A stretch of DNA of 37,880 bases, from assembly GCA_023251095.1 (NCBI GenBank), contig JAHEZL010000003.1, positions 210,706-248,585 of the forward strand, read 5' to 3'. Each line of letters begins with the position of its first letter. The stretch's first letter is position 1. Of this stretch, positions 2,233-33,384 are shown in pieces. Position numbers and translations under genes: made by a program. This stretch comes from Flavobacteriales bacterium (GTDB lineage Bacteria; Bacteroidota; Bacteroidia; Flavobacteriales_C; GCA-002722245). The notes beneath the pieces were generated by a model that did no database searches, was not told where the DNA came from, and worked only from the letters and a program-made list of their open reading frames with translations.

Positions 2233-3279
2233 CTAAGCAAAATCCCCCGGATCCAACTCACTAAACTTTTTCTTCCCTTTTAAAAAGTATTGCTTCACAA
2301 TGCTACGCTTGTATATCCGCGGAAGATCTTTGTTTTTAATGGTACGTTGAATGTGTCGGCGTTTTTTTAGTGTTTTTGGTAGCGTAATATAAAACCTCAT
2401 GTGCGCCCGAAACACAGCGTAAAATTGTATAGGATCTTTTTCAGTGAGGAATTTAAAAGCCGCAACTCCATCTAAAATCATTTTATACAACAAATTCGGG
2501 AAAAGATTTTTAGTTGGTAAATTTTTCACCAACATAATGAGGTTGTTCCTGAAATTTAAATAGGGTTTCAGCGGATTGTGCTTTGGTAGTGTGCCTCCGC
2601 CGATATGATAAATTTTGGAATGTGGAGTGTACATGATTTTATAGCCGAGATTTTTTATTCTCCAGCACAAATCAATTTCTTCCTGGTGGGCAAAAAAATC
2701 TTCATCGAGTCCGCCTGCTTCCCAGTATATTTCCGATCGTACCATCATTGCTGCACCGGTGGCCCAAAATATTTCTTCAATGTTGTCGTATTGTCCGTGG
2801 TCTTCTTCGAGGTCGGAAAATAACCGTCCTCTGCAAAAAGGAAATCCCATATAATCAATAAATCCGCCGGCAGCACCTGCATATTCAAACTGCGTTTTTT
2901 TGTCGTACCACAAAATTTTTGGCTGACAAACGGCAAAAGATTTATCGCTTTCCATCAACTCATAAAGTGGTTCAATCCATCCCGGAGCAACTTCAATATC
3001 CGAGTTGAGTAAAATGTAATAAGGTGTTTTTATTTGCTGTAAGGCTAAATTGTATCCTCTCGCAAAGCCTTCATTTCCGGGGTTTATGATGATTTCAATT
3101 TCCGGATAGTTGGCTTTCATGAAAGCTACCGAATCATCGGACGATTGATTGTCGGCAACAACGATATTCGCATACGAAGGCAAAGAAGATTTTAATGCCG
3201 GAAGAAATCTTTCCAGATATTTTTTCCCATTCCAGTTAAGAATGACAATGGCAATTTTTATTTCGTTTACGGTAGGCAT
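2233..3279 (-). CDS. Family 2 glycosyltransferase (rhamnosyltransferase-like)
   Basis: 348 residues, cytoplasmic and possibly membrane-associated. The GT-A fold is clear: an opening strand with NWNG (residues 15-18), VVADNQSSDDS (Asp43), then the metal-binding DXD-type motif NSD (92-94). An acceptor-side segment GAAMMVRSEIYWEAGGLDEDFF is followed by EEIDLCWR, the helix carrying the probable catalytic base. This is the WbbL-like subgroup that adds sugars to lipid-linked surface polysaccharide; donor and acceptor cannot be read from sequence. The basic C-terminal 80 residues probably face the membrane. It lies 48 bases downstream of the large T9SS protein on the same strand, so co-transcription is possible, although only one glycosyltransferase is present. 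Confidence 0.85.
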   Translation of the reverse strand: MPTVNEIKIAIVILNWNGKKYLERFLPALKSSLPSYANIVVADNQSSDDSVAFMKANYPEIEIIINPGNEGFARGYNLALQQIKTPYYILLNSDIEVAPGWIEPLYELMESDKSFAVCQPKILWYDKKTQFEYAGAAGGFIDYMGFPFCRGRLFSDLEEDHGQYDNIEEIFWATGAAMMVRSEIYWEAGGLDEDFFAHQEEIDLCWRIKNLGYKIMYTPHSKIYHIGGGTLPKHNPLKPYLNFRNNLIMLVKNLPTKNLFPNLLYKMILDGVAAFKFLTEKDPIQFYAVFRAHMRFYITLPKTLKKRRHIQRTIKNKDLPRIYKRSIVKQYFLKGKKKFSELDPGDFA

Positions 3280-3327
3280 TAGTGGTAAAGATAATAGAAA
3301 GAGTTAAAGGGAAGAAAAATTTAATAT

Positions 3328-6300
3328 CTATCGGATCAACGAAACCCTTCCTATTTCTTCACGCCATATTTCTTTGTGATGGCGGCGGTATCGCACTTTC
3401 CACACATATACATCCATTTGTACAGGATTGTTTTTGTAGGTGCCGTTCCAGCCTTGGTTGATGTCGTAACTGGTGAAAAGCAATTCGCCCCAGCGGTCAT
3501 AAATTTCAAGTTCAAATTCTTCCACGCTGATGCTTCGGAAATAAAACACATCATTGGTATTGTCGCCGTTAGGCGTGAAAGCATTGGGTACATAAACCTT
3601 ACGGATCACATAAACATTCACCGAATCTTTGAAATAACAACCTTTGTCGTCGTACAATGTGTATTGATAAGTGATGTCTCTTTCGGGAAGAGTAACCAGA
3701 GGAGAAGCACAATCTGTACAGGAAAGATAAGTGCTTGGCGACCAAACAACTTTGTCTTCAAAATTTGAATTTATTTTTAAATCCTCGCCATATTCTAAAA
3801 CATAAGCTCCGTTAAATCCGGTGAAAGGTTTTTCGGCCAGACTCACCGTGGTAAAAAGAGAATCAACGCAACCATCGGTATTGGTGATGATGACTTTGTA
3901 AGTGGTTTTTTGCTGCGGGAAGGCTGATGGATTGGCAATGCTGTCATTGTTGAGCGATGCTGACGGCGACCATAAATATTTCGCTGCACCTTTTGCCAGC
4001 AAAGGGATGGAATCGTCTCTGCAAATAGTGGTGTCGGATGAAATGGTTCCCTGTGCTTTTGAAATCGTTACCAGATAAGGAACAGTATCTTTTCCGCACA
4101 TGTTGCTGATGATGGATTTGTAGAGCGTTGTAGCTTGTGGAGTAGCGATCGGGTTTTTAATTTGCGCATTGTTTAAGGTTCCCGAAGGCGTCCACTGGTA
4201 AGAATAATTTCCGTTTACTCCGGGATCAAGCACCAACGATTTTCCAATACAAATTAATGAATCGGGTTGAATATTAAACGCAGGAACAGGAATAACTTTC
4301 AGGAAAACAGAATCGTTGATGTTGCATCCGTCAGGTGATTTAAAAGCAACATAAACTGTTTGTGATTGATTCAGTGTTACCTGTGTGGAACCGGAACCGG
4401 CAGAGGAAAAAGACTGTGAAGGTGTCCATTGAAAAGCAGATCCAGGTGAAGCGGAAACAGTGTGTGCCACTCCCGGACAAACAGAGTCCGTCGGACTTAT
4501 CGTGTGGTTTAAAGAAAATAATGAAATGGTTAGTTCCGCCGAATCTTTGTTGCAAAAACTATTTCCGTTCACAGTGTAAGTGGTATTGGCCAAGGGTGTT
4601 GCAATCACTGATGTTCCTGCAGATTGATTTAAAGTGGCTGCGGGTTTCCACTGGTAAATTGTTGCGCCGCTGGCGGTGAGTGTGACGCTTCCTCCCGGAC
4701 AAACAGAGTCGTTGGGAGATACTTTTAAATCTACTTGCGGTACTACGCGCAAACTCATGTAAGTGGTGTCAACGGGCGGACAACCTCCGGGATCCAGCGC
4801 CAGCAAGGTGATGGTGTATAAGCCCGTGTCAGGGTATGTGTACGTTGGTGAAAAATCTGTACTCTTATCGCCGTTGCCAAAATCCCATTCAAAAGATTTT
4901 CCGCCGTTGCTTTGGTTGTTAAAAGTAATGGGTTCGTTTTTACACGCTAGTGTATCCACTGTTGCAGCGATGTAAGCAGTGAGTTTTGATACATCAAATT
5001 TGATGACGGCTAAATTACAATTGGTGGATTGATTCACATTCGACCATGCGCCTGAAGTAGTGGGAAAATCCGATTTTCCGCCGCAACCGCCACATACGGC
5101 TTGGTATACATTTCCTTTTTTATCGAAGCGACTCGTGCCTCCATCCACATGTTCCAGGGTGGTAGCGCCGCCAAAATAAGTTCCGTATTTTAAACTTCCT
5201 GCATCCTGAGAAAATACTGCTAAATAAAAATCACTGCCGTCGGTGCTGCTTTGAAAAGCATCAGAAGTAACAGGCATTCCATTGGTGCTTCCCTGAATAT
5301 TGTTTTGAAAAAGATTAATAATTCCTCCCCACGCGGATATGTAAATGTCTTCGCAGTTATTGACTAAAAAAGCCGAGGGGATTAAATCGATATTATTGGA
5401 ACCCGATCCTATAACAGTTGAAAATACTGTGGTGGTAAGCGTACTGTTTAATTTGTGAATGAACTGATGGCTACCGGGATTGGAATAAGTTCCGGCAGGA
5501 AAAACGGGATATGCTCCTGCACTCTGACCGAAAACAAAAACGTTGTTGTTTTTATCCAGCTGAACGAAATACGACTGATCATACAACGCAGTTCCAATGT
5601 AAGTGGAAGCTTTTAAAGTTTGTCCGTTGGCCGATAAATGAGCAATAAAACCATCAATTCCGCCCTGTGCGCTTGTATGTAAAACTCCTGCTGTAGTAGG
5701 GAAGTTAGCACTTTTCGTTCCGCCGGTGATGTATAAGTCGGAAGAACTGTCGAACTGCACCGAGTAAATCGCATCATCTCCGCTTCCTCCGATATAAGAG
5801 CTCCAGAGCAAAGAAGAAAGATCGTTGTTTAACTTCATGATGATGCCATCGTGACTTCCTCCGGCGAAAGCATTCTGAAAACCTGAAACTATAGGGAAGT
5901 TAGCTGAGCTGGTAGTGGTGGCAACGTAGGAATTGCCGAGACTGTCGACTATAATTTCACCTCTGAAAATATCACCGTAGTTGTAATATAATTTTGAAAC
6001 ATTGTATTCGTCGTTTAATCCGTCGTTGGAAGTTCCGCCAATTAAAGTAGAGCCGATGAGGGCACTTCCGGAGGCATTGAGTTTAGTGACAAAAATATCA
6101 GTGCCGATGGAATAAGTTAAAACCTGATCAGTGGTGACGGATGTTCCTCCGTTGAATGTTTTGTCGTAAGCAGTGGCCGTTGTAGGGAAGTTAGCCGAAC
6201 TGGTACTTCCGAAAATCAGCAATTCATTTTTGTTTGAAACTACTAAACTGTGTGGAGATTCAATGTCATTTCCGCCGATGTAAGTAGAGTAAATCAGTGA

Positions 6301-27144: not shown

Positions 27145-29157
27145 ATGCAAAAAAGGTACTTAATTAAAGGAATTGCTATTGTTTTTACGGTTGTTTTAAC
27201 TTCTTGCGCCACTTACTGGAAGGGAACGTACTCCCTTAACGAGAAGTTGGTTTTGCGTAAAGCACAGGTAAGTGAAAATGATGAAGATTATTCTTCTGCA
27301 CTTGATTTTTACACTGCAGTGTACAATGAGCACAAAGAGGATGGCTTCCTGAACTATAAAATGGGTGAATGCTATTTGTTGCAGGGAGATGTGAAAAAAG
27401 CATTGACTTATTTAGAAGTTGCGGAAGCTAAAAATTCAGGATTAGAGCCTATGTTCTCTTTCCGTTACGGACAAGCTTTGCAAAAAAGCGGGTCTTACAA
27501 AAAGGCTGCGGAGGTTTACGACAGATTTAAAAAGGCTGCTAAAGCCGGCGATATAAAATACACCAATGTTGATTTGTACATCAATCAGGTTGCTTTTGCT
27601 TCCAAGGCAATTGAAAGTCCTGTAAATGCGGCAATATACAATCTCGGAGATTCTATCAATAGCACTTATTCAGATGGTTTGCCAAATGTTACTGCCGACG
27701 GTAAAACTCTTGTTTTCACTTCGGCTCGTCCGGAGGGAAAAGGTGGAAGTGCCGTAACAGACGGTGCTTATTTCCAGGATATTTATTCTTCGACATGGAA
27801 TGACAAAACAAAAAAATGGTCGAAAGCAACAATGCTCCCTGATTCTATCAACACTACCGGACATGATGCCAACACCAGTATTTCTCCTGACGGAACTTCT
27901 ATTTTCTTGTACAGAAATATTCAGGAAGCAAATTATCACACTGGATCAGGTGACTTGTATGTTTCAGCCAAAATAAACAACAATAAATGGGGTGCTGCCA
28001 AACAGGTTCCTTTTATGAATACCGATTATTTTGAAGCAGGAGCTTGCGTTTCAGCTGATGGTAAAAAAGTATTTTTCATCAGTGAAAGAAATGATGTGTT
28101 AAATAAAAATTATGGCAACACGGATATTTTTATGATGGAGTTGAAAGACAGCGTTTGGTCAAAACCATTTAACATCGGCGCTGTTGTAAATACTTCTGAA
28201 GATGAAATCGGATTGTACATTCATCCCGACAGCAAAACTTTGTTTTTTGCATCTAACGGTCACGATGAAAATATGGGCGGTTATGATATCTTCAAAACTG
28301 TTTATGAAAATGGTGTTTGGTCGAAACCGGTTAACCTGGGTTATCCTATCAATACCTTCAGAGATGAGCGTCACTTTGTGATGTCGGCTGATGGCAGCAA
28401 AGCTTATTATACTACTCAACAGGATCCTGCACGCAAGGATTTGGATATTTATCAGGTTAATTTAACCAATTACAATGTGATCACGGGAGAAAACAAAAGT
28501 GTTGTTTTGCTGAAAGGAACCGTGATGGATGCTTCTGCAGGAAAACCTTTGGCTTCTGAAGTTTTCATCAGAAATGTTGACAGTACCAATGTAACGAGAA
28601 TCAATACTTCTGATAAAGGAGTTTTTCAATACAATTTACTGGCCGGACAGAAATATGTAGTTGAAGCCGCTATTAAAGGATTTAAACCTTATTTATCCGA
28701 AATTCAGGCTCCTGTTGCAGAAAAGGAAATGGCTTTTGTCGTTTCTCTGGAAAGCGACGGATCACAAGTGAAAAACACTGTAGCTCAGGTTGAAGCTCCT
28801 GCCAATAAAGAGGTTTTTGAAGTAGAGCATCTTATTTTCACGGAAAGTATGGACTCTTTGAAATTCGGTCCGAAATCCAGAAAGATCATGGAGAAGGATC
28901 TTAATAAACTGAGAAAAGAAGGCTATCTGAAAATCAAGATTACCGGTCATTATTTTGGAGACGGCAACTCAAAAGCATGTATGGAGCAATCTAAAAAGCT
29001 GGCCGACTATGTGAGATTTTACTTTGTGTCTCATGGAGTTCCCTTCGACAGAATTTTAGTGGTAGCCGCAGGAAATACACAAGCGTTGACGAAAGATGTT
29101 AAAAGCAAAAAAGGAAAAGCTGAAAACACCCGTATCGACGTGCTGTTGGAATACTAA
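27145..29157 (+). CDS. TPR / PD40 propeller / CRD / OmpA lipoprotein, PorE-like
   Basis: 670 residues. Lipoprotein signal with LTSC (Cys21); TPR-type helices (about 45-130, YSSALDFYTAVYNEHKEDG); a PD40/WD40-like beta-propeller (about 165-440, with LVFTSARPEGKGG, SADGKKVFFISERND and LFFASNGHDENMGGYDIF); a carboxypeptidase-regulatory-like domain (about 452-535); an OmpA C-terminal-like domain (about 560-670). This order is that of the T9SS accessory lipoprotein PorE, but Bacteroidota carry several paralogues with the same plan. The OmpA domain is degenerate: the expected NxxLSxxR helix reads KACMEQSKKLADYV. It likely bridges the outer membrane and peptidoglycan. holA follows 11 bases downstream. 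Confidence 0.82.
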   Translation: MQKRYLIKGIAIVFTVVLTSCATYWKGTYSLNEKLVLRKAQVSENDEDYSSALDFYTAVYNEHKEDGFLNYKMGECYLLQGDVKKALTYLEVAEAKNSGLEPMFSFRYGQALQKSGSYKKAAEVYDRFKKAAKAGDIKYTNVDLYINQVAFASKAIESPVNAAIYNLGDSINSTYSDGLPNVTADGKTLVFTSARPEGKGGSAVTDGAYFQDIYSSTWNDKTKKWSKATMLPDSINTTGHDANTSISPDGTSIFLYRNIQEANYHTGSGDLYVSAKINNNKWGAAKQVPFMNTDYFEAGACVSADGKKVFFISERNDVLNKNYGNTDIFMMELKDSVWSKPFNIGAVVNTSEDEIGLYIHPDSKTLFFASNGHDENMGGYDIFKTVYENGVWSKPVNLGYPINTFRDERHFVMSADGSKAYYTTQQDPARKDLDIYQVNLTNYNVITGENKSVVLLKGTVMDASAGKPLASEVFIRNVDSTNVTRINTSDKGVFQYNLLAGQKYVVEAAIKGFKPYLSEIQAPVAEKEMAFVVSLESDGSQVKNTVAQVEAPANKEVFEVEHLIFTESMDSLKFGPKSRKIMEKDLNKLRKEGYLKIKITGHYFGDGNSKACMEQSKKLADYVRFYFVSHGVPFDRILVVAAGNTQALTKDVKSKKGKAENTRIDVLLEY

Positions 29158-29168
29158 GATCTTTTACT

Positions 29169-30167
29169 GTGTCGATTGAAAACATCATCCGTGATATAAA
29201 AAAAAAGGAAGTAAAACCCATTTACTTTCTCTCGGGTGAAGAGGCTTATTACATTGATTATATTTCTGATTTCATTGAAGAAAACCTGATTCCCGAAGAG
29301 GACAGGGCTTTCAATCAATCTGTGTTTTACGGTAAAGACGTTGATTTGCAAAATGTGATCAATCTCGCGAAACAGTTTCCTATGATGGGCGAGCGGCAGT
29401 TAATTATCGTTCGTGAGGCTCAGGATATCAAAAATTTCGATTCCCTAGAATTGTATTTAAAACAACCCCAAGCTTCAACAGTTTTGGTGTTTTGCTACAA
29501 AGGAAAATCTTTGGATAAACGAAAAGCACTTCCCAAAACCATTGATAAAATGGGGGTTTTGTTTGAATCGAAAAAACTGTACGACAATCAGGTTCCCGAC
29601 TGGATCGTAAAATATGTCGAAGGAAAAAATTTCAAAATCTCTCCGAAAGCGTCTGTTTTATTGAGCGAATTTTTAGGAAATGAATTATCCAAAATCACCA
29701 ACGAAGTAGATAAGTTATGCATTCTTCTTCCTGCCGGATCAATGATTTCTCCGGAGGTAATTGAAAAGAATGTGGGCATCAGCAAGGATTACAATATTTT
29801 TGAATTGAATAATGCCTTAGGCAGCAGAGATTTTGAAAAGGTGATGCGCATTATTCATTACTTCGCAGCGAATCCGAAAAGCAATCCGATGGTGGTGGTG
29901 CTATCTACTTTACATGGTTATTTTTTGAAAGTGATGACCTATCATTTTTCTCCAGATAAAAATCCGGATACACTTGCTACTACTATGAAAGTGAGCAAAT
30001 TCTTTATCAAGGATTATCAGCTGGCTGCAAAAAATTATCCGCCGAAAAAAATCAGTCAGATTTTTGAATTGCTGAATGAATATGACTTGAAATCCAAGGG
30101 AGTGAACAATCCAAGTACCTCTGAAGGAGAGCTTTTAAAAGAGCTGGTGTATAAGATGATGCGCTAA
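29169..30167 (+). CDS. holA: DNA polymerase III subunit delta
   Basis: 332 residues. The delta subunit opens the sliding clamp as part of the clamp loader. Seen: KKKEVKPIYFLSGEEAYYIDYI (N-terminal delta motif), FPMMGERQLIIVREAQ, LSEFLGNELSKITNEVDKL and the collar domain YNIFELNNALGSRDFEKVMRII through LLKELVYKMM. The start is GTG at 29169. Length and motif order are normal. It is 11 bases from the lipoprotein stop and probably co-transcribed, although functionally unrelated. Confidence 0.92.
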   Translation: MSIENIIRDIKKKEVKPIYFLSGEEAYYIDYISDFIEENLIPEEDRAFNQSVFYGKDVDLQNVINLAKQFPMMGERQLIIVREAQDIKNFDSLELYLKQPQASTVLVFCYKGKSLDKRKALPKTIDKMGVLFESKKLYDNQVPDWIVKYVEGKNFKISPKASVLLSEFLGNELSKITNEVDKLCILLPAGSMISPEVIEKNVGISKDYNIFELNNALGSRDFEKVMRIIHYFAANPKSNPMVVVLSTLHGYFLKVMTYHFSPDKNPDTLATTMKVSKFFIKDYQLAAKNYPPKKISQIFELLNEYDLKSKGVNNPSTSEGELLKELVYKMMR

Positions 30168-30210
30168 AAACAATACCTTTTTCAAAAATTAATTTGCATT
30201 CACAAAACAA

Positions 30211-30229
30211 TAGTGTTAAATTGACACTA
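30211..30229. promoter_or_regulatory. Short inverted repeat next to a start codon
   Basis: TAGTGT and ACACTA are perfect reverse complements separated by TAAATTG, ending two bases before the ATG at 30232. A TTTG lies at 30193-30196. It could be an operator or a translation-blocking stem; the arms are short enough to be chance. Confidence 0.25.
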
Positions 30230-30231
30230 AT

Positions 30232-31638
30232 ATGAAATATCTTCTACTTGTTTTAAGTGTATTTGTTTTGCAAAATTCTTATGCGCAAGACAGTGTTAGT
30301 CATACGAAAAAAATATATCTCAATTTCACTGTTCTGGATATACCTTATCTCACTGCTGCTGCTGCAACAGTTAGTGCAAATGGAAATCCGCAATTTGGCG
30401 ACTATTTTAAAATGTACGCCAATCCCAGTATGAGTCAATCGCTGGCTCTTTCAAACGATTTATTTACGGCCACACATTATGGAATCCGACAGCTTTTCAG
30501 AAAAAAGAAAACCTGGCAAAAAAATCTTTTGTCCAATCTTATCTGTGCGCCGATTTATTTGTTGTATGACTACTCACCTTTTGGAGATGGCTGGCTGCAT
30601 GAAGAATACCACCGTTCAATGATGACTCTTCATCATTTGAATAGTTTCAACGACATGAATACTTTTCCTTTCGGAAAAGAACTGGTATCGGTTAATTCAG
30701 TGCAAGATGCGCAATTGGCGGGGATGAAGGCAAGCTCTAATCCCGATTTTGTTAGAATGATGTGCGCCGGTATTGAAGGGCAATACCATCAGATTCATCA
30801 GTTGCAGAGAGAGAATTTTTATTATCATCAGCATCTTCCGAATTTTGTTTTGTATTGGATGTCGACAATGAATTCCATTTTTTATGTGAATATCTGTTCT
30901 GATACTTCGTTTGTTAATTCCGAGATCAATTATGTCATGCAGAACGAAGGTTCTAATGTGAAAATAAGAGATTTTACCGGTTTGGATTTCAATGCCTGGG
31001 CTTATGATTTATTCCGGCCGGATGAAGTTTATGCCAATCGCGGCATACATCCGTCGGGTGTTGGAATTAAGCGATATATCCGCGCTTCTGATATGACTGC
31101 TGAAGAATTGGCTTATCTCGCTAAGCAGGGAAGTTTACAATATCTCAATTTGCTTTCACCCGCAATGTTTGGCTTTTCTACAATTAAATTGAAGACTACT
31201 GAAAAGGGTAGTTATTACGGGAACTTTGCTGTTCGGCATTTACTGACTTCTTTCGGTACCGATATTTCCACCAACATCATGTATCAGTCGCCCACAAGAA
31301 ATTACTTTTTTGCTTATCACCATTATCAGAATTATACTACTGCTTTGCCCGGTATTGAAATGGAAATCATAGATGAACCCATTAAAATAAAAGGAAAAAC
31401 AATTTTATTGTCGCCAAAAGTAATGCTGTGGCTTCAACCCAAAGATCAGCTTTTTAAAACTGCTCAGTCGGAATTTGGAGGATTGATTGGCGTGAGTGCG
31501 AATTACCCTTTGTCGAAAAGAATTTATCTGAACATCGGCATCAGCGGGAAAACAAACGGTTGGGTGATGGGCAATATGTATCTGAAGTCGAATTTCTCTG
31601 CTATTGCCGGATTGCGAATCAATATCGCTGCTAAATAG
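30232..31638 (+). CDS. Exported protein of unknown family with an HExxH motif
   Basis: 468 residues. A signal peptide (about 1-19, ending SYAQ) is followed by a largely helical first half and a beta-rich, barrel-like second half ending in GLRINIAAK. The sequence WLHEEYHRSMMTLHHLN contains HExxH (His123, Glu124, His127), the zinc-binding core of many metallopeptidases. A possible third ligand, Glu182 or a nearby His (GIEGQYHQIHQ), follows about 55 residues later. A hydrophobic stretch (LICAPIYLLYDYSPFG) precedes the motif. The C-terminal half (about 330-468) has amphipathic strands such as YYGNFAVRHLLTSFGTDISTNIMY, suggesting an outer-membrane location. I do not recognise the family, and a peptidase role is unproven. 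Confidence 0.7.
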   Translation: MKYLLLVLSVFVLQNSYAQDSVSHTKKIYLNFTVLDIPYLTAAAATVSANGNPQFGDYFKMYANPSMSQSLALSNDLFTATHYGIRQLFRKKKTWQKNLLSNLICAPIYLLYDYSPFGDGWLHEEYHRSMMTLHHLNSFNDMNTFPFGKELVSVNSVQDAQLAGMKASSNPDFVRMMCAGIEGQYHQIHQLQRENFYYHQHLPNFVLYWMSTMNSIFYVNICSDTSFVNSEINYVMQNEGSNVKIRDFTGLDFNAWAYDLFRPDEVYANRGIHPSGVGIKRYIRASDMTAEELAYLAKQGSLQYLNLLSPAMFGFSTIKLKTTEKGSYYGNFAVRHLLTSFGTDISTNIMYQSPTRNYFFAYHHYQNYTTALPGIEMEIIDEPIKIKGKTILLSPKVMLWLQPKDQLFKTAQSEFGGLIGVSANYPLSKRIYLNIGISGKTNGWVMGNMYLKSNFSAIAGLRINIAAK

Positions 31639-31701
31639 TGCTGAAAAAATTCTCGTTTTGCTTTTCACTTTTTTTATCATCGTTTATTTTTCAACTTCTT
31701 C

Positions 31702-31731
31702 TTTAATAAACAACGAATATTCGTAGCTTTG
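31702..31731 (+). promoter_or_regulatory. Promoter of the pyrG-yidC operon
   Basis: TAGCTTTG at 31724-31731 is an exact TAnnTTTG -7 element; a TTTA at 31702-31705 stands 18 bases upstream. Transcription would start about 8-10 bases before the ATG at 31747, leaving a very short leader. Confidence 0.55.
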
Positions 31732-31746
31732 CACTCGGCAAAATAA

Positions 31747-33383
<1,637 letters not shown>

Positions 33384-33384
<1 letters not shown>

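Follow-up and report, generated by a model that had tools for sequence, protein, structure and literature searches.

A candidate protein family joining a conserved HExxH motif to a predicted outer-membrane barrel

The gene, its setting and its relatives

The window analyzed here, a 37,880-nucleotide stretch of a Flavobacteriales genome, contains an open reading frame (ORF) whose product had been described, from the sequence alone, as an exported protein with an HExxH motif, possibly located in the outer membrane. The locus thus raises the question of whether a metalloenzyme is built into the outer membrane, and of what kind. The ORF starts with an ATG codon according to the ORF listing, and its main features are given below, where conservation refers to A2, a 50-row alignment of the family.

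30232..31638, + strand: whole coding sequence, 468 amino acids, stop included (ORF call; homologues near full-length)
30232..30285, + strand: putative signal peptide, residues 1-18 (...NSYA|Q; hydrophobic N terminus, cleavage site inferred by eye)
30310..30342, + strand: predicted first barrel strand, residues 27-37, with D36 invariant in A2 (model, conservation)
30346..31182, + strand: predicted inserted helical domain, residues 39-317 (model; folds alone with a pLDDT of 95.9)
30592..30615, + strand: W121-L-H-E-E-Y-H-R128, with proposed metal ligands H123 and H127 and proposed general base E124 (conservation in A2)
30706..30708, + strand: D159, invariant in A2, within helix 159-168 (conservation, model)
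30772..30777, + strand: I181-E182, E182 being the proposed third metal ligand (Glu in 48/50 rows, His in 2/50; conservation in A2)
30967..31074, + strand: R246-D-F-T-G-L-D252...W256...Y267...H273-P-S-G-V-G-I-K-R281, the densest conserved block of the helical domain (A2)
31183..31629, + strand: predicted remaining barrel strands, residues 318-466 (conservation, model, strand alternation)
within 31183..31629, + strand: barrel motifs on the domain side, TSFG (339-342), QP (402-403) and K440-x-x-G443-W444 (A2, model)

The HEEYH sequence occupies residues 123 to 127, inside a predicted helix (119-132) that comes after a helix of hydrophobic sequence (94-112), in agreement with the original prediction of a helix-like stretch behind a hydrophobic segment. 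By chance, HExxH is expected 0.013 times per protein of this composition. The His/Glu-rich segment that had been noticed about 55 residues further on corresponds to GIEGQYHQIHQLQRENFYYHQH, which holds E182, 55 residues past H127. A hydrophobic N terminus is present in 48 of the 50 members, whose starts were partly chosen on that ground.

The target is flanked by ORFs that we take to be holA-like (29169-30167) and pyrG-like (31747-33384), the latter followed by a presumably yidC-like ORF. Of four other genomes of the genus, three have the holA-like gene directly next to the pyrG-like gene, with 94 to 123 bases in between, and no match to the target was found in any of these four congeners. The fourth has an unrelated 340-residue ORF in that interval (L089:269-1291; compare window 30168-31746), in which a possible von Willebrand A-like stretch, DLCFLIDKTGSM, was noticed by eye. 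Since the gap is filled differently or empty in the congeners, the target is an accessory gene at a permissive spot, either gained in the lineage of the window or lost elsewhere. A neighboring ORF of the window (27145-29157, 670 residues) presumably contains TPR-like, PD40-like and OmpA-like parts and resembles what we take to be Bacteroidota envelope anchor proteins. When 499 ORFs of the family's loci were clustered, no neighbor cluster was found in more than seven loci apart from the family itself, which leaves no shared neighbor to point to a substrate; this is a weak result because many loci are short.

Judging from sequence comparisons, the target belongs to a real, unnamed, and sparsely scattered bacterial protein family. 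The single target sequence retrieved no relative in the first genome scan. A first relative, at the 38% identity level, was then identified in 1 of 100 relative genomes besides that of the window, one further genome of the window's phylum carries a relative at 33%, and two Spirosoma plasmids carry relatives at 44%. A five-row alignment (A1), which includes the two Spirosoma proteins and those of G017 and G362 (apparently the same contigs as L023 and L047), was used to probe the species-genome collection and yielded 112 candidate stretches; relatives are encoded in 52 of them. These loci bear ten phylum labels, i.e., Bacteroidota, Spirochaetota, Gemmatimonadota, Fibrobacterota, Acidobacteriota, Pseudomonadota, Nitrospirota (Troglogloeales), Ignavibacteriota, Poribacteria, and Schekmanbacteria, with one locus (L044) labeled only as “bacterium”; as most sources are metagenome-assembled genomes (MAGs), a few of these labels may be binning errors. 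The labeled phyla have two membranes, and single-membrane phyla are absent among the labels, which fits an outer-membrane protein. In the phylogenetic tree, spirochaetes L009, L012, L013, and L057 group with the Bacteroidales locus L008 (support 100/98), away from spirochaetes L030 and L037, a grouping that points to exchange between phyla provided that the MAGs are correctly binned.

The family is rare. Within the phylum of the window, 2 of 395 genomes carry it, counting that of the window; it was also found in 5 of 120 genomes of the phylum of L013, the seed included, and in 1 of 121 genomes of the phylum of L016, namely, the seed itself, a second match there belonging to the second branch described below. 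Weak profile matches (E ≤ 1) occurred in 12 of the 395 genomes and comprise two members (G000 and G362) and one protein of the second branch (G253). The other nine genomes were taken as noise, and two of them (L064 and L067) were inspected through their ORF listing.

Conserved residues, a second branch, and copies without the histidines

A2 leaves out a gene broken over two frames (L048), a gene at a contig end (L053), L056, which was dropped for a contig end and for missing both histidines, and the second copy of L012. An HExxH that varies among homologues, the outcome that would speak against the original prediction, was not encountered in this alignment: W121, H123, E124, E125, and H127 are present in 50 of 50 rows and R128 in 49, while position 182, also singled out beforehand, is Glu in 48 rows and His in 2, both from Telluribacter. 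The complete set of invariant residues is D36, W121, H123, E124, E125, H127, D159, G180, Y218, R246, D247, G250, D252, W256, Y267, G276, G278, R281, N306, G342, P403, K440, G443, and W444, and H273 is His in 44 of 50 rows. The Telluribacter sequences (L050 and L051), which sit on a long tree branch, have Phe in place of H273 in addition to His in place of E182.

One of the two patterns used to recruit members contained HEE, so the conservation of the motif could be a selection effect. In the 28 loci whose ORF does not contain this pattern, HEExH was present in the same ORF in 26 and in another frame in L048, and L056 had none. Taking all 52 loci together, 51 encode HEExH (50 within the ORF and L048 in its second frame), the exception being L056. 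Moreover, four homologues found by profile alone (L080 to L083) all contain HEExH and E182. Not all of the columns that are invariant or nearly so in A2 are universal, since R128 is replaced by Lys in L082, and D36 and N306 by Glu and Ser, respectively, in L083. Asp, Glu, or His occupies at least 45 of the 50 rows at D36, H123, E124, E125, H127, D159, E182, D247, D252, and D259, and among these columns the only pairs spaced i/i+3 or i/i+4 are those inside HEExH, which favors a single metal site. Beyond this motif, A2 has no conserved E/DxxH pair, and the sequences give no sign of a classical second ExxH metal half-site.

A more distant group carries HExxGH. The protein of G253 (404 residues, profile E value of 4.4e-4) contains QHEVFGHG, GGVEAE, and the barrel motifs LTPFG, QP, and KTKGF, and relatives of it are present in two further genomes of the 395 and in one from the phylum of L016. 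Together, L060, L071, L072, and L078 make up another family without a name, whose members combine HExxGHG with a PYGxGxG stretch and the barrel motifs TPFG, QP, and KxxGF. Pfam gave nothing meaningful for the three members scanned (L060, L071, and L072), plasmids contained no match to this group, and a scan of 150 genomes for it was also empty, a result to which the tool itself attaches no weight. Aligned with hhalign, A2 and three of its members matched over 233 columns with an E value of 2.4e-9 for that single comparison; the matched columns include E182 and the barrel and exclude HExxGH. Three of the four members, all but L071, have a Glu 50 residues beyond the second His of HExxGH, compared to a distance of 53 to 60 residues between H127 and E182 in the main family. 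The TPFG, QP, and KxxGF motifs are present in all four, and the RDFxGxDF block is missing. The group therefore looks like a distant second branch of the main family, in which the equivalence of HEExH and HExxGH is a positional argument only because MAFFT placed the two motifs out of register. A shift in spacing of this kind is supported by peptidase family M49, which tolerates the same change: HEISH stands in place of the usual HEXXGH in Caldithrix abyssi (PMC5805324, in part), and HELMH is reported in Corallococcus (PMC9820243, in part).

Two natural copies have lost the histidines. In L056, which comes from the same MAG as the intact L039, YEEYQ replaces HEEYH; this copy retains E182 and TSFG but no longer has G180, and the contig ends before the remainder. 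We also noted a tandem pair in L012, a Treponema MAG, where the first copy (768-2228) reads EREYT at the HEEYH position and precedes an intact one (2246-3646). The upstream copy ends 14 bases before the intact copy, keeps E182, TSFG, QP, and KxxGW, and has lost Y218, R246, and G250. H123 and H127 are missing together in both cases, as expected if they serve one purpose, such as metal binding. By sequence, the L012 tandem may be a pseudoenzyme-enzyme pair, and the co-occurrence of histidine-less and intact copies in L012 and in the L039/L056 MAG resembles such pairs.

Predicted structure and library searches

An AlphaFold model built with A2 reached a mean pLDDT of 94.5 and a pTM of 0.91. It consists of a strand (27-37), helices from residue 39 to 313, including 119-132 with HEExH and 170-197 with E182, and strands from residue 318 to 466. 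H123, E124, and H127 lie in helices of this confident model and not in a loop, whose exposure away from any pocket would have been at odds with the original prediction. The barrel-like character proposed for the C-terminal half is upheld, as 318-466 is predicted to form consecutive beta strands with alternation between inward and outward residues. By our count, the barrel has about 10 strands when the short strand 382-386 is joined to 389-403. In all 11 strand segments, one alternating face is the more hydrophobic, as in membrane barrels, by 1.7 to 4.3 units family-wide on a Kyte-Doolittle scale adjusted for aromatic and some small residues, in an uncontrolled comparison. The features expected of an outer-membrane barrel, i.e., a signal peptide and amphipathic strands closing into a barrel, are thus present in the prediction, in line with the proposed export and location. 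The helical domain is predicted to be inserted after strand 1 of this amphipathic barrel of about 10 strands.

To compare the two ends of the barrel, strand 1 was taken as running toward the helical domain. The half of each strand on the domain side is the better conserved in 10 of 10 strands, with margins of 0.06 to 0.24 in mean top-residue frequency in an uncontrolled comparison where some differences are small (0.40 versus 0.34). Four short turns on the domain side each have a single length (2, 4, 9, and 13 residues) in 50 of 50 rows, while the four turns on the far side comprise 0 to 4 residues and vary little in length, one of them being constant too. Ordinary porins vary mainly in their outer loops. 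The highly conserved TSFG, QP, and KxxGW motifs are also located at the domain end of the barrel and, together with the conservation and the constant turns found there, suggest that the barrel mouth and the helical domain form one composite active site. In the model, the N terminus, the C terminus, and the shorter turns are at the end opposite the helical domain. Since outer-membrane barrels usually have their termini on the periplasmic side, the far end would be periplasmic, and we infer that the helical domain faces outside the cell.

Searches of family libraries gave no name to the target, which matched nothing in Pfam, NCBIfam, or PHROGs; PADLOC likewise returned nothing for the target and L060. 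Across the 50 members, no Pfam or NCBIfam family was matched by more than two of them, even at E ≤ 1. Scattered weak matches involved 12 Pfam families (DUF3575 in two members, best E value of 0.029; the rest in one member each, best 0.014) and 11 NCBIfam families in one member each (best 0.0027, TIGR02497), and were taken as chance. Searches of the PDB by sequence gave three matches for the target alone (E values of 0.44 to 1) and three for the A1 profile (0.14 to 1.3), and the best match of the second-branch profile had an E value of 1.1. The A2 and A3 profiles matched only phage T5 pb4 (0.003 to 0.005) over about 70 residues, which we judged to be chance; the aligned part does not contain HExxH. 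No match to the target was found in the phage records.

Among solved structures, Foldseek found no match to the whole model at E ≤ 0.001 (best 1.5e-3), and the top rows listed were mostly porins and other outer-membrane barrels along with some photosystem chains. The best Z score was 8.2 (PorB; root mean square deviation [rmsd] of 5.3, 209 residues aligned), values rated as middling by the tool, and the barrel seems to resemble porins only in architecture. For the helical domain alone, the best Foldseek E value in the PDB was 0.52 and the best Z score was 4.7 (rmsd of 5.4, 148 residues aligned); the list of matches is mixed, with no single family, which is not proof of a new fold. The sole metallopeptidase in its Foldseek list, M1 aminopeptidase 4wz9_A, had an E value of 3.4 and was taken as chance. 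No convincing match to known metallopeptidases was obtained by family model, PDB sequence, or fold. In the viral structure library, nothing reached E ≤ 0.001, and outer-membrane-type barrels and maturation proteins of single-stranded RNA phages were among the matches. Finally, none of the titles and abstracts retrieved from open-licence papers describes a family that joins an HExxH metalloenzyme or gluzincin with an outer-membrane barrel, a silence that is a weak indication limited to such papers. The original statement that no family with this combination is known holds for the family and structure libraries searched, and the target remains the candidate new family that had been proposed.

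Proposed function and its place among known enzymes

Our preferred reading, in which we see an about equal chance of being right or wrong, is that the target is a metallohydrolase, and most likely a peptidase, integral to the outer membrane, with a surface-facing metal site made of H123, H127, and E182. The signal peptide would direct the protein to the periplasm, from where the C-terminal half would insert in the outer membrane as a barrel of about 10 strands, with the all-helical domain of about 280 residues after strand 1 capping one of its ends. H123 and H127 from one helix and E182 from another would hold a metal ion, probably zinc, and E124 would activate water, as in gluzincin peptidases. 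The TSFG, QP loop, and KxxGW loop of the barrel mouth may complete the active site together with the RDFxGxDF...W block, and the same elements may choose a substrate at the outer leaflet or cell surface. We consider the family, the conservation of the motif, and the predicted architecture to be strongly supported, metal and catalysis moderately, and the substrate assignment weakly; metal, hydrolysis, orientation, and substrate are all matters that we infer. In the model, HExxH lies on a helix, as in gluzincins (clan MA). No metallopeptidase was prominent in the fold searches with the helical domain, an absence that still leaves room for the fold of this clan.

We favor a peptidase solely on the grounds that the combination of HExxH and a downstream Glu is chiefly a signature of peptidases. 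The location beside the membrane would suit a lipid or lipopolysaccharide (LPS) hydrolase almost equally, and the same scaffold and metal site could belong to a metal-dependent hydrolase that modifies outer-leaflet lipids or lipid A, analogous in location to PagL, LpxR, or OMPLA, a possibility to be taken seriously even if we think it rather unlikely. Conserved positions are concentrated toward the end of the barrel that faces the helical domain, lipids are frequent substrates of known barrel enzymes of the outer membrane, and OMPLA is among the barrel matches (Z score of 6.5, rmsd of 4.8, 151 residues aligned), though as one of many barrels. The peptidase signature speaks against such a substrate, as does the large helical domain, which is unlike the small barrel enzymes acting on lipids.

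The chemistry itself could also be different. E124xxH127 within HEExH could be read as a diiron element, i.e., as half of a two-metal site completed by E182, E125, D159, D247, or D252 in a redox or oxygenase-type enzyme. E125, D159, D247, and D252 are conserved as strictly as the proposed ligands (50/50), have no role in the mechanism proposed above, and bring the number of acidic invariants above what a mono-zinc peptidase needs. We nonetheless find this very improbable: A2 holds no second conserved E/DxxH pair, the second branch does without the RDFxGxDF block, and the upstream copy of L012 does without R246 and G250. Somewhat less improbable, yet still unlikely in our opinion, is a nonenzymatic barrel for binding or transport at the surface, with a metal in a structural role, to which the porin-like architecture of the barrel half and the existence of natural histidine-less copies would correspond. 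However, a structural site does not need the invariant E124 (50/50), and the histidine-less copies share a locus (L012) or a MAG (L039/L056) with an intact copy, as pseudoenzymes do. A surface-facing metallohydrolase, most likely a peptidase, remains the reading that we prefer.

Several known systems share part of this design. The omptins (OmpT and Pla) correspond to what is predicted for the target, a 10-strand outer-membrane barrel protease; their active site is on the cell surface and uses Asp and His on the barrel itself, with no inserted helical domain, and the target has no Pfam match to the omptin family. For Pla, the 10-strand barrel is described in PMC3724046 (in part). The gluzincins of family M49 (dipeptidyl peptidase III) have HExxH or HExxGH with a Glu ligand tens of residues further on (PMC5805324, in part). 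They are two-domain enzymes without a barrel, whereas the target has a predicted one, and neither Pfam, NCBIfam, PDB profile, nor fold searches linked the target to M49. Likewise, BepA (M48) and other envelope HExxH proteases, reported to be zinc metallopeptidases acting on outer-membrane biogenesis, differ from the predicted barrel of the target in that BepA is periplasmic and not a barrel protein. The KdgM/NanC and PorB-type porins share the barrel architecture of the target (Z scores of 7.4 to 8.2 over 140 to 209 residues, rmsd of 4.1 to 5.3), but at about 10% identity or less, and Z scores this low may reflect a common arrangement only. These porins are channels without a catalytic domain. 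Conversely, OMPLA, PagL, PagP, and LpxR are enzymes built on outer-membrane barrels, without an HExxH metal site and without a large helical domain.

To our knowledge, few enzymes reside within the outer membrane, all of them small barrels that rely on serine, aspartate, or calcium. The neat absence of the target from close relatives means that its function should be testable by the removal of one gene in a carrier. In its boldest form, which we put forward tentatively and hold to be somewhat short of an even bet, the proposal is that the family would represent the first metallopeptidase class integral to the bacterial outer membrane, in which a catalytic domain of a new, all-helical fold is placed between the first two strands of a 10-strand barrel and shares the active site with the barrel mouth, with HEExH and HExxGH branches and with some genomes carrying active copies next to inactive ones. 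A barrel with a metal-dependent catalytic domain, if true, would be a new design, found under ten phylum labels.
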